Below are positions 15,122 to 22,843 of a stretch of 64,000 bases of DNA, in pieces. The stretch lies in assembly GCF_003264935.1 (NCBI RefSeq), contig NZ_QLOE01000004.1:1-64000 (forward strand). Direction: 5' to 3'. The position numbers and the translations under genes are program-made. This stretch comes from Methanothermobacter tenebrarum. Lineage in GTDB: Archaea; Methanobacteriota; Methanobacteria; Methanobacteriales; DSM-23052. A model generated the notes under the pieces. It made no database searches and was not told the DNA's origin. It saw only the letters and a list, made by a program, of their open reading frames with translations. The stretch's first letter is position 1; every line of letters starts with the position of its first letter.

Positions 15122-15230
15122 TGCCGGGGGCGGGGTTCGAACCCGCGACCTCACGGTATCCCAGGTAAGGGTTAGAGCAAGTTATTCTACCCTATGAGCC
15201 GTGCGCTCTAACCAGCTGAGCCACCCCGGC
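15122..15230 (-). tRNA. tRNA-Met (CAT), elongator type, with 35-base intron
   Basis: On the minus strand the acceptor arm GCCGGGG pairs with CCCCGGC, the D arm is GCTC/GAGC, the anticodon stem CACGG pairs with CCGTG, and the T arm is GCGGG-TTCGAAC-CCCGC with discriminator A. The anticodon is CAT. A 35-base intron (15158-15192) interrupts the anticodon loop after position 37, the usual place for archaeal introns cut at a bulge-helix-bulge. Removing it gives a normal 74-base tRNA. No CCA is encoded. The first acceptor pair G-C and loop features favour the elongator rather than the initiator. Confidence 0.93.
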
Positions 15231-17458: not shown

Positions 17459-18094
17459 TTATTTCCTAGCCCTTGCAACCTTTCTAGCTATGACTAACTC
17501 TCCAATTGCTATAAGTCCAACGAAGAATTTTTCAAGCCCGCCAGTCGCCCAAATCGCCTCTCCAAATGTTGATTTTTTTATCCTTTCCTCGTATTCTTCT
17601 GCTGTTATCCTTTCTCCTGTTCTCCTTCTTGTGATTATAGCAGCAGCTTCCATGAGCTCATCCCAACTTATACCCTTTAACTCTTGTGACATGGCTTCAA
17701 AGATCTTGTAAACCTTGATCTCATATAAACTAGAAAGTGTTTTCACTATATCCAATGCTCTTACAATCCCGACAATGACACCTTCATCATCTAATACAGG
17801 CAGGTTAACAACCTTATGTTTTGAGATTTCCAAGACTGCTAATCTTGCAGGGTCATTTTCATGTACGTGTATAATCTCCTCTGGTATGTGCATAATCTCT
17901 GACACCCTCTTTTTACCCTCCCTAAGGCCCCTGATGACATTGAGGGATGTTATCCATCCTATAAGTCTCCTTTTCTCGTCTACTACAGGTATGGTGAATC
18001 TTTTATGTGTTTCCATTTTTTCTGATACTTCATCTAGATCTTCATCTGGGCCTACTACTATGAATTTCTTATCCATAAGCTCTTTAACTTTCAT
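17459..18094 (-). CDS. CBS-domain protein at the end of the eha operon
   Basis: Two CBS domains fill residues 1-125 (MKVKELMDKKFIVVGPDEDL begins the first; VSEIMHIPEEIIHVHENDPA begins the second). Such pairs bind adenosine nucleotides or SAM. A C-terminal part of about 85 residues (MSQELKGISWDELMEAAA onward) has no family I recognise. The ATG follows GAGGTTAT. Its start overlaps the end of the polyferredoxin gene by 11 bases, so it is translationally tied to the hydrogenase operon and could sense energy charge for it (inference). Confidence 0.75.
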   Translation of the reverse strand: MKVKELMDKKFIVVGPDEDLDEVSEKMETHKRFTIPVVDEKRRLIGWITSLNVIRGLREGKKRVSEIMHIPEEIIHVHENDPARLAVLEISKHKVVNLPVLDDEGVIVGIVRALDIVKTLSSLYEIKVYKIFEAMSQELKGISWDELMEAAAIITRRRTGERITAEEYEERIKKSTFGEAIWATGGLEKFFVGLIAIGELVIARKVARARK

Positions 18095-18842
18095 AGGATA
18101 ACCTCTTTAATTTTAGTGCGCCTACGGGGCATTTAGTAGAGCATACTTCACATAATATGCATTTATCCTCTAAGAATATGAGTTCCTCGTCTTCGAGTCT
18201 TATAGCTTCTGTTGGACAATTTTCCTCACATATTTGACATGCAACACAAGCTTCTCGGTCTATTAGAAGTTCTTTCGTTTTTATTACGGGTCCGAGTTCT
18301 CTTTCAAGTTTTATCGCGCCTTCTTCACATACATTTGCACAAGCTCCGCAACCGATACATATACTGGTATCTATGGTTGCGGTTTCATCTTCGAGTCTTA
18401 TAGCTTCTGTTGGGCAGAATCTGATGCATGTACCGCAACCTTTACATCTTTCACTGTCTATTTTGATGTTTTTCATTCTCAGGATTCTGTGGGGTATTTT
18501 CAAGTCTTTGAGGTGGTATTTCACATCTTCGTCTATTGTTGCTGTGCTCTCAACCACATTTATGCATCTTATAGGACAAGTCTGGGCGCATATTTCACAT
18601 TTCACACAATTTTCAAGCACTTTAGCCTGTCTAGTGGATTTTGCATCGGCCATGGCGTCCACTGGACATTCTTCGGCGCATAGGTTACATCTTATACATT
18701 CTGGGGAGATTGTTATGAATTTACCCTTCATTTCACATTTTCCAACATCTAAACCTTGGCCTTCCACGGCCTCTAATTCCATGTATCTCCCCTGTAAGTC
18801 TTCTTTAAGCGCGTCTTTACTTTTTTTAAAGATTATGTCCAT
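18084..18842 (-). CDS. Polyferredoxin, six predicted 4Fe-4S clusters
   Basis: This soluble electron carrier (252 residues) contains six CxxCxxCxxxC units: CIRCNLCAEEC, CVKCEICAQTC, CKGCGTCIRFC, CIGCGACANVC, CVACQICEENC and CILCEVCSTKC. Cysteines would hold six [4Fe-4S] clusters. It starts 12 bases after ehaQ and overlaps the CBS gene, so it belongs to the eha operon and probably extends the electron wire from the hydrogenase. It is a third polyferredoxin beside the EhaP- and EhaQ-like ones. I do not assign an Eha letter. Confidence 0.82.
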   Translation of the reverse strand: MDIIFKKSKDALKEDLQGRYMELEAVEGQGLDVGKCEMKGKFITISPECIRCNLCAEECPVDAMADAKSTRQAKVLENCVKCEICAQTCPIRCINVVESTATIDEDVKYHLKDLKIPHRILRMKNIKIDSERCKGCGTCIRFCPTEAIRLEDETATIDTSICIGCGACANVCEEGAIKLERELGPVIKTKELLIDREACVACQICEENCPTEAIRLEDEELIFLEDKCILCEVCSTKCPVGALKLKRLSYES

Positions 18843-18854
18843 TCTTATACACCA

Positions 18855-20207
18855 TTAATCTGCGATTAGTTTGATGGCGTTTACGGTGCATATTTTTTCA
18901 CATTCACCACAGCTGATACAAGCTTCCTGGTCAACTATTATTTTATCGTTTTTGAGGCTTAGGGCATTTACTGGGCATTTGTTTACGCAGATACCGCATG
19001 CTTGACAAATCATATCATCAGGGATGACCTTTCCACTCTTTGGCCCCTTGATTTCTCTTCTTGTAAATAGTATCCTATCATCTTTGATGGTGAAGAATTC
19101 TTCTTTGAGGGTTATTGCCTCTACTGGACAAGCTTGTACACATTTTCCACAATATACACATTCTTCTCCTATGCTAATTGGGGCTGGCATTTCAAGTTCT
19201 ATGCAGTTTACTGGGCATTCATCGACACAAGCTCCGCAGCCAATACATTTCTCCTCTAAACTTGTTATTTCTCTATGTGGTTTGGTCTTTTCGATTATCT
19301 CTACTATTTCATCTATTTCAATGTCCCCGTCTATGATTTCCTTGATTTTTTCTTTTATCTGATCTGTTATATCTATTTCAAAGCTTTTTTCGTCATGTTT
19401 ATTGCTTATTTCATCGGCGATATTTTCTAGGATAGAGTTTATCCTGCTTGTGGCCTCTGCTACTTTTTCTGTTTCTTTTTCGAGAATTTCTGATACCATT
19501 TCCATGGTGTGTATTCTGTTAAATTTTCTGATGGCTGTGGTTCTTGTGGTGTATTTGATGGCGGTTGATGGGCATACGTCCATGCATTTTTCGCATCTTG
19601 CACAATATGCAGGGTCTATGTAGGGTAATTTACTTACTTTCCCGACTTTTATCGCCCCTTTGGATGGGCAGACTCTTGTGCATGTCATGCAACCTATGCA
19701 CTTGTTGTGGTTTATTACCAGGGCCTTTCCTGTGGCCACGGCCCTTGGTAGGATTTCACCATATTTTATGGCTTCTGAGGGGCATGCTCGGGCGCAGTAA
19801 CCACATCTTACACACTTTTCTTCATCTATCACTGGGTGTATTTCCTCTTTACCAGAGGCTACGAGTTCTATGGCACCAGTTTTACAAGCTGCAACGCATG
19901 CTCCACAGTTTAGGCAAAGTTTCGGGTTTATTGTAGGTGTTGGTTCTCTTATAGGCTCTGATAGGATGGTTTTCATTTTTATGGCATCGTATGGGCATGC
20001 TTCCCTGCATAGTATGCATCCTATACATTTTTCGTCTATTTCGATGTGGTTATCTGGTGGTATTTCATGTATGGCATCTACTGGGCAGACTTTAAGGCAG
20101 GGCCTATCCTGGCATTTTTTGCACTTCTTATCATCTATTTCATATTGGACTTCTACTTCCCTTATTGGTTTGTATGTTTTTTCGACAGTTACTGGAATTT
20201 TTATCAG
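18855..20207 (-). CDS. ehaQ: Polyferredoxin EhaQ, ten predicted 4Fe-4S clusters; non-canonical start
   Basis: This is an electron-transfer polyferredoxin of energy-converting hydrogenase A. The first ATG in the frame (complement of 19974-19976) would give 373 residues and eight clusters, but the frame stays open upstream and encodes two more, [14 protein letters not shown] and [12 protein letters not shown]. That brings the total to ten, the number I recall for EhaQ. No ATG, GTG or TTG exists between the upstream in-frame stop and 19976. The probable start is the CTG at 20205-20207, which overlaps the ehaP stop as CTGA in the manner of ATGA junctions. An ATT at 20196-20198, nine bases after GGGG, is the alternative. 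A 100-residue non-cluster helical segment sits between clusters 6 and 7. Confidence 0.83.
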
Positions 20208-21217
20208 CCCCTTCCAACTATCTGGGATGGTTTTAGGGTTATGAGGATTTTATCATCTTTTAGGAGGAATCTTGCAGTGTATAATCCTGGGACTCCGAAT
20301 GGACATGTTTGGTAGCATATGCTGCATCTGAGGCACTTTTCAGGGTCTCTTTCGGTGATGCCTTTCTCTTCGTTGTATTTGAGGGCGCCTGTGGGGCATT
20401 CGTCTATGCATAATCTACAACCTTTGCATTTGTCTTCATCCCAGGTTATTACATTGATCTTAAGTCTGTCTGTTATATTTTCCACTATCTTGGTTACTTT
20501 TTCTTCATCAGGAAGTATTTTAAGGGCTTTTTTCATAATTTTGGATAGTGGGAATTCCAATTTTATAATCTTGTCAGGGTCATAGTCTGGGAGTTTTCTA
20601 ACCCTTTCAACTTCTAAGTTTATAGCCTTTTCTAGATTCTCGACTAATAAGTTAATTATCTCTTTTTGTTCGTCGATGTTTGTGATAAAGACTTCTTTTA
20701 TGGCTCCTTTTATTGGACATGCGTTGATGCAATCTCCACATGATACACATTTTGACTGGTCTATGGTGATTATGTTGTCATGGGATGAGATGGCCCCTAC
20801 CTTGCAAGCTTCTAGGCATTTTTCGCAGCGTATGCAAAGGTAGTCATCGATCACATAGAGGGTATCCTTTGGTAGTATCTTGTATTCTTCTTTTATAAGA
20901 TAGTTTTCACCTGTTTTGAGGGTTTTTGGTTCTGTTGGGCACACTTCCACGCAGAATCCGCATCTTATACAAGCTGATTTGTTTATGACAGGGTAGGCCA
21001 TTTCCATTTCATCGTCTCTCACCAGTTTTATCGCCCCTGGGGATGGGCAGGAGGCTACGCAGGCTCCACAGGAAATGCATAATTCTTTTTGGACTTCTGG
21101 GAAATCTCTGAACCTTGATGGCGATTCGGCTATCTCTGGATCTGTTTTAGCATCTAGGAATCTTTTGATCCATTTTTTCCTTGCGAATTCGTATATGTAC
21201 CATATTACAGAGGACAT
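20204..21217 (-). CDS. ehaP: Polyferredoxin EhaP, six predicted 4Fe-4S clusters
   Basis: It carries electrons from the hydrogenase small subunit. Residues 1-45 include an amphipathic or hydrophobic start ([16 protein letters not shown]) like that of NuoI/EchF proteins. Then come [33 protein letters not shown] and [11 protein letters not shown], a charged helical linker of about 90 residues, and [11 protein letters not shown] and [11 protein letters not shown]. It starts six bases after ehaO ends. Six clusters and 337 residues agree with EhaP. Confidence 0.85.
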
Positions 21218-21223
21218 TATAAT

Positions 21224-22399
21224 TTACCTCTCATTTTCTCCTTTCTGTGTGGTATGTTCTTTTAAAAGGTTGTTCATACCCCTGAAATCTTTTTTGTTTC
21301 CATCTTCATCGATTATTGTTACACGTTCGGTGCAGGCAATGCAAGGGTCTATACTCTGGTATATGGCGACTGCATCTGCTATTGTAGGCGAATCATTGAA
21401 CATATGTTTTACACAAGCTTCAAGGTTCATTATAGTGGGGGTTCTTATGGTTATATCCCTTATGATACCATTTTTCGCTGTTTCGAATATGTATGTGACT
21501 TCGCCTCTTGGAGCTTCGTATCTGTTATCAATTGAACCTTCCGGTATTTCGCACTCTTTCCTTATCGGCCCTTCCGGGAGTTCATCGATGGCTCTTCTTA
21601 TTATTTTTATGGATTCTAGTATTTCATCGAACCTTACCATTATCCTTGCATAGTTGTCGCCTTCTTTTCTCCATACTGGTTTGAAATCGAAGTAGTCTGT
21701 GAAGGTTGGATGTTTTTGTCTCCAGTCGAATTTTACACCGGAACCCCTTGCTATGGGTCCTACTGCCCTTACATCTATTGCTTCTTCTCTGGTCATTTTT
21801 CCTATGTCCTTGGATCTTAGGCCTAGGAATGCTCCGGTTTTGAACATTTTACGGTATCTGTATACTGCTGGTTCCACTATATCCAAGTTTTCTAATATTT
21901 TCTTGATTTGGTTTTCTTTGATGTCCATTCGCACTCCGCCGACTACGTTCCAGGCGTAGTGCACTCTGTTTCCTGTTATCATTTCTGTAAGGTCCATTAT
22001 TTTTTCTCGGATGTTTAGTAAGTATATTCCGAGGGTTTCGTGTTCTATTGCCAGGAAGTATATGGCATTGGCAATTAGGTGGCTTTGTATACGGTTGAGT
22101 TCACCTACTATTACCCGGAGGTATTGTGCTCTGAGTGGGGGTTCGCACTCTGCAATTTTTTCTAGGCCCTCTATGAATGTTACGGGGTGGAAGTGGGAGC
22201 ATATGCCGCAGATCCTCTCTGAAAGGTAGACTACTTTCTGCCAAGGTTTGCCCTTGGCTATCTGTTCTGCGCCACGATAGAAATAGCCTAAGTCTACTTC
22301 GGCGGCTACTACACGTTCTCCTTCTGTTTTGAGTTTTATTCTTAATGGTTCTTTTATCCCTGGGTGGATCGGCCCTATGGGTATATAACTCATTATCAT
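21224..22399 (-). CDS. ehaO: Energy-converting hydrogenase A large (catalytic) subunit
   Basis: This subunit holds the [NiFe] centre that makes or uses H2. Both pairs of nickel-binding cysteines are kept: RICGICSHFHP near residue 62 and DPCIACTERV near 350. The protein resembles NuoD/EchE type group 4 large subunits. About 38 residues follow DPCIAC, longer than in forms that end right after the motif, so maturation by cleavage is unclear. In hydrogenotrophic methanogens Eha replenishes reduced ferredoxin using the ion gradient. It follows the small subunit by 12 bases. Confidence 0.93.
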   Translation of the reverse strand: MIMSYIPIGPIHPGIKEPLRIKLKTEGERVVAAEVDLGYFYRGAEQIAKGKPWQKVVYLSERICGICSHFHPVTFIEGLEKIAECEPPLRAQYLRVIVGELNRIQSHLIANAIYFLAIEHETLGIYLLNIREKIMDLTEMITGNRVHYAWNVVGGVRMDIKENQIKKILENLDIVEPAVYRYRKMFKTGAFLGLRSKDIGKMTREEAIDVRAVGPIARGSGVKFDWRQKHPTFTDYFDFKPVWRKEGDNYARIMVRFDEILESIKIIRRAIDELPEGPIRKECEIPEGSIDNRYEAPRGEVTYIFETAKNGIIRDITIRTPTIMNLEACVKHMFNDSPTIADAVAIYQSIDPCIACTERVTIIDEDGNKKDFRGMNNLLKEHTTQKGENER

Positions 22400-22411: not shown

Positions 22412-22843
22412 TTATTTTGAATAGCTGGCCAAGACTCCTGGCACGTATTTTAGTATGGCTGTGGCTATCTCGGCCGGTCTTGGCGGGCATCCTGGGACTT
22501 CAGCATCTACTGGTATGAAATTGCTTACTGGGGCCCCTGTTTTGTCGGATTCTTGTTGGAATATGCCCCCTGTTAGGGCGCATGCTCCTATTGCAAGCAC
22601 TGCTTTCGGTTCTGGGACTTTGTTGTATAATTCTATGAGTTTTTCTTGCCATTGTTTTGCCACGTGTCCAGTGACTAGTAAGGCGTCGCATTCACGTGGG
22701 TTGTTATGATAATATATGCCGTATTGTTCGAGGTCGTATCTTTTTGATAGGAGTGCGGCTACTTCTATGTCGCATCCGTTGCATCCTCCAGTGCAGATTA
22801 GGCAAACGTGAATGGATCTTTTCCTTATGAAGTCTTTTATCAT
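22412..22843 (-). CDS. ehaN: Energy-converting hydrogenase A small subunit
   Basis: It carries the proximal [4Fe-4S] cluster next to the NiFe site. Ligand motifs are [11 protein letters not shown] near residue 17, GACALTGG near 88 and VPGCPPRP near 116, as in NuoB/EchC proteins. The length of 143 is typical for group 4 small subunits. Its start overlaps the end of ehaM by four bases, and ehaO follows. Confidence 0.92.

Follow-up and report, generated by a model that had tools for sequence, protein, structure and literature searches.

The ehaQ gene of Methanothermobacter tenebrarum is very likely translated from an AUU codon (20198-20196, minus strand), which would be read as methionine by the initiator Met-tRNA. 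Positions are those of the window, the whole 64,000-nucleotide stretch analysed (positions 1 to 64,000 of contig NZ_QLOE01000004.1). Both initiation at AUU and methionine as the first residue are what we infer from the sequence. The original prediction had preferred a CTG whose CTGA overlaps the stop of ehaP and had kept this ATT as the second option, and it is the second option that emerges as the best-supported start: the codon is conserved, it lies 8 nt from a Shine-Dalgarno sequence, and ATG stands in its place in relatives.

The ehaQ reading frame

18855..20198, minus strand: inferred coding region of ehaQ, 447 aa, a 10 x [4Fe-4S] polyferredoxin of the Eha energy-converting hydrogenase (Pfam Fer4 matches, frame, alignment)
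19974..19976, minus strand: first in-frame ATG, the canonical gene-caller start (373 aa), rejected as the sole start (upstream stretch conserved and under purifying selection)
19995..20027, minus strand: second N-terminal motif (11 residues), 5' of the first ATG (motif search)
20085..20123, minus strand: first N-terminal motif (13 residues), 5' of the first ATG (motif search)
20196..20198, minus strand: proposed ehaQ start codon ATT (AUU) (homologous ATT/ATC in 14 species, ATG in relatives, spacing 8 nt)
20203..20212, minus strand: Shine-Dalgarno sequence AGGGGCTGAT, 8/10 match to AGGAGGTGAT (sequence match)
20205..20207, minus strand: CTG of the original prediction, rejected as start (out of frame in L009, spacing 3 nt)

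The ehaQ frame, which ends at 18855, is open over 464 codons. As originally predicted, no ATG, GTG or TTG serves the full frame; the first of these codons is the ATG at 19976, with 77 in-frame codons upstream, and a mechanical ORF lister calls the gene at only 373 aa. A count of CxxCx(2-4)CxxxC motifs confirms the further claim of ten [4Fe-4S] motifs, two of them before this ATG. Ten clusters are not new, because Kaster et al. 2011 already describe EhaQ as a 10[4Fe4S] polyferredoxin (PMC3087415). Structure matches included no solved structure of EhaQ itself.

The stretch upstream of ATG 19976 has the properties of coding sequence. In a codon-usage scan of 464 kb (400 kb of the genome in stretches plus the window), ehaQ ranks first among 450 coding frames for coding signal 5' of the first canonical start, with 24.0 versus 10.7 for the runner-up. 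Across the order, the stretch is kept in essentially every homologue read at its N-terminus, and its two clusters are invariant across genera. Between congeners, dN/dS is 0.03-0.17 for codons 16-77, and the rest of the gene is alike; by this measure, the N-terminus is under purifying selection. Three in-frame near-cognate codons lie 5' of the motifs, CTG 20207-20205, ATA 20204 and ATT 20198-20196; 20198, rather than 20207, is most likely the limit of the coding region.

A conserved ATT or ATC codon

Alignment of ehaQ starts across Methanobacteriales, the check suggested with the original prediction, places ATT or ATC at one codon in 14 species of five genera. For this comparison, the N-terminal part of ehaQ was read in about 97 Methanobacteriales genomes and codon-aligned on a conserved Arg. 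The strict set, comprising species without a usable canonical codon, consists of 4 species of the window's genus, 7 intact species of family f2 (Methanothermobacter-like, named by resemblance only) and the single-genome genera G038, G148 and G150. In 14 of 14 species, the ATT or ATC stands at −11 or −12 from the conserved Arg, is preceded by GG[AG]G[ACT]TGAT, and has a score of 7.0-9.5 and a spacing of 7-8 nt; no other in-frame near-cognate codon before the first Cys combines such score and spacing. Relatives with normal starts have ATG at the homologous codon with similar spacing (L043, L034 and L072 at −12; L052 and L101 at −11). The same arrangement in 14 species also excludes a sequencing error as the cause of the missing start, which the original prediction had listed as a possible refutation.

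A few canonical codons do occur near the start within the strict set. In L009 a TTG is in frame, but it precedes the Shine-Dalgarno sequence and lacks one itself, and in three f2 members (L017, L020 and L021) a GTG without a Shine-Dalgarno sequence stands seven codons downstream of ATT, before the first Cys, where siblings have GTA. In the Methanothermobacter-like L029 (G016), the N-terminal frame of ehaQ is broken, with Shine-Dalgarno sequence and ATT intact; we suspect an additional base close to the second motif. Genus g5 of the same order (e.g. G011, G019 and G020) gave no ehaQ match in any sampled genome.

Spacing, counted to the start codon from the end of the match aligned with AGGAGG, peaks at 7-9 nt in the 266 genes of the source genome that have a good match; the anti-Shine-Dalgarno sequence assumed here is the standard one of archaea, as no 16S rRNA was found in the genomes searched. 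The ehaQ ATT falls within this peak at 8 nt. Among internal ATT/ATC codons, 26 of 1772 (1.5%) have a context as good as that of the ehaQ start. Thus, ehaQ pairs the lack of a usable canonical start with an AUU/AUC that has a correctly spaced Shine-Dalgarno sequence, and this pairing is conserved in related species.

In an unrooted EhaQ tree, two changes are needed between the ATT/ATC and ATG states. G151, the only genome outside the order in the phylum sample, gave no EhaQ match that could serve as an outgroup, and the unrooted tree does not tell whether the ATT/ATC state was gained or lost.

Operon context

20204..21217, minus strand: ehaP, a 6 x [4Fe-4S] polyferredoxin (Fer4), with its TGA stop within the Shine-Dalgarno sequence of ehaQ (ORF list, Pfam)
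21224-22399: Complex1_49kDa/NiFeSe_Hases gene (Pfam)
22412-22843: Oxidored_q6 gene (Pfam)

The ehaQ gene directly follows ehaP in the eha operon, near the genes for the hydrogenase large and small subunits, and in the window its ATT begins 5 nt past the ehaP TGA stop. Coupling to ehaP is not the whole cause of the ATT/ATC state, because ATT/ATC persists in L059 and L013, where the ehaP-like frame stops about 160 nt sooner (tblastn positions). Another polyferredoxin gene directly follows ehaQ (window 18084-18842) and resembles the 6[4Fe4S] gene after eha in Methanothermobacter. Elsewhere in the window, at 15122-15230 on the minus strand, Rfam identifies a 109-base tRNA that is missed by ARAGORN; its length suggests an intron-containing tRNA.

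Alternative readings

The CTG at 20207 is in frame in this species alone and resembles the ATGA overlaps, and CTG starts seem to occur elsewhere in the source genome. It is, however, out of frame in L009, L010, L011 and L012 (three congeners and G038), and the Methanothermobacter-like family lacks it altogether. Its distance from the core of the Shine-Dalgarno sequence is a mere 3 nt, a spacing found in 1 of the 266 calibrated genes. One extra A before ATT puts the CTG in frame in the window; L009, which is 96% identical, has one A fewer, so the in-frame CTG is an accident, and initiation there is very improbable. We give equally little credence to initiation only at ATG 19976, or at some other canonical codon downstream, yielding nothing but a shorter EhaQ with eight clusters. 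That ATG is the first in the frame and the mechanical ORF call, but a start there would discard two clusters that are under purifying selection, that do not vary between genera, and that follow a well-placed ATG in many relatives; published EhaQ, moreover, has ten (PMC3087415). An EhaP-EhaQ fusion produced by frameshifting or stop readthrough might be imagined from the adjacency of the two frames, which are fused as a single 807-codon open frame in L062 (G130), a termite-associated Methanobrevibacter genome in which this could be a natural fusion or an assembly effect. However, the frame of the ehaP stop relative to that of ehaQ varies between species and takes all three values, which makes a conserved frameshift or readthrough unlikely; in L059 and L013 the genes seem to stand well apart, and a strong Shine-Dalgarno sequence immediately precedes the ATT. 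A fusion of this kind is therefore highly unlikely as well.

How far the ATT/ATC start extends beyond the strict set is a closer question. Six further genera (g7, g8, g11, g12, g13, which includes Methanobrevibacter cuticularis, and g15) have an in-frame TTG or ATG inside the Shine-Dalgarno sequence itself (GGAG-TTG-AT or GGAG-ATG-AT), 0 nt from GGAG, and again have ATT or ATC 8 nt from the Shine-Dalgarno sequence. ATT/ATC at the homologous codon is thus found in five genera, or in 11 when these cases are counted. Translation in the six could begin at the ATG or TTG inside GGAG[A/T]TGAT, since a canonical codon is available there, which would confine the ATT/ATC start to the five strict genera. 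That codon, however, abuts the core at a spacing of −1 nt, at which 0 of the 266 genes of the source genome start, whereas ATT/ATC stands at 8 nt. Furthermore, in L059, which has no usable canonical start and is a sister of L013, L014 and L070 in the same clade, the TTG within the Shine-Dalgarno sequence is out of frame, whereas in those sisters it is in frame. We regard a start inside the Shine-Dalgarno sequence as possible but doubtful, and ATT/ATC is probably the ehaQ start in these six genera too.

A second apparent non-canonical start

The runner-up in the codon-usage scan is the gene at G000:C1:18223 (L186:18223) of the source genome, a gene for a DUF1512-like membrane protein. Its putative start is a CTG after GGAGG, and ATG occupies the homologous codon in three genomes belonging to two other genera (homologues L206-L219). 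CTG stands at this codon in 4 of 4 species of the window's genus and in five (L213-L217) of the seven f2 species read there; ATG or GTG replaces it in the remaining two. This gene therefore appears, from the alignment, to have a conserved CTG start. In the source genome (L186:18211-18681), an in-frame TAA follows after 156 codons and the frame continues beyond it; relatives are open for about 370 codons. Because the CTG case was found by this route, the scan recovers plausible non-canonical starts other than that of ehaQ, and more such genes can be sought with it.

Proposed initiation at AUU

We propose that the Shine-Dalgarno sequence AGGGGCUGAU would set the 30S subunit with AUU in the P site. 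Because the ehaP TGA overlaps this sequence and the ATT follows so closely, ribosomes finishing ehaP in the window's genus would be delivered beside the AUU. In E. coli, AUU initiation is about 0.3% of that at AUG (Hecht 2017, as cited in PMC10666635), and in Sulfolobus aIF1 destabilises non-AUG initiation complexes (PMC6237735). The strong Shine-Dalgarno sequence may compensate for the weak AUU, and it is reasonable to suppose that the weak codon would lower EhaQ output relative to its operon neighbours. A further step would be that selection keeps AUU/AUC as a translational valve, with aIF1-dependent discrimination setting or regulating EhaQ dose as an archaeal counterpart of infC-type control; this we consider unlikely. 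With such a start, ehaQ would let the fidelity of archaeal aIF1 be tested on a natural gene. Gene callers restricted to ATG, TTG and GTG will truncate or shift its N-terminus.

Comparison with known systems

To our knowledge, conserved AUU/AUC starts are almost without example outside bacterial infC, and no prior report of a conserved, lineage-wide AUU/AUC start in archaea was found in the open-licence literature. The EhaQ of Methanothermobacter marburgensis and thermautotrophicus (Kaster et al. 2011, PMC3087415) is likewise encoded next to ehaP, has ten clusters and belongs to Methanobacteriales; the passages searched there do not mention its start codon. AUU is the natural start of E. coli infC, which encodes IF3, and of pcnB, and discrimination against AUU lowers initiation (PMC9410913). 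The AUU start would be common to these genes and ehaQ, but infC and pcnB are bacterial, and the product of infC regulates its own gene, whereas EhaQ, a subunit that carries electrons, is not known to act in initiation. Like ehaQ, sigR of Streptomyces has a non-canonical start outside the translation-machinery genes; its start is GTC, not AUU, and repression by IF3 has been shown for sigR (PMC5472188). Switches from AUG to AUU between close prokaryotic genomes are rare, about 1 in 61,358 ancestral AUG starts (Belinky 2017, PMC5622118), whereas the AUU/AUC state of ehaQ is kept across methanogen genera, which suggests that such codons can be used routinely by archaeal ribosomes.
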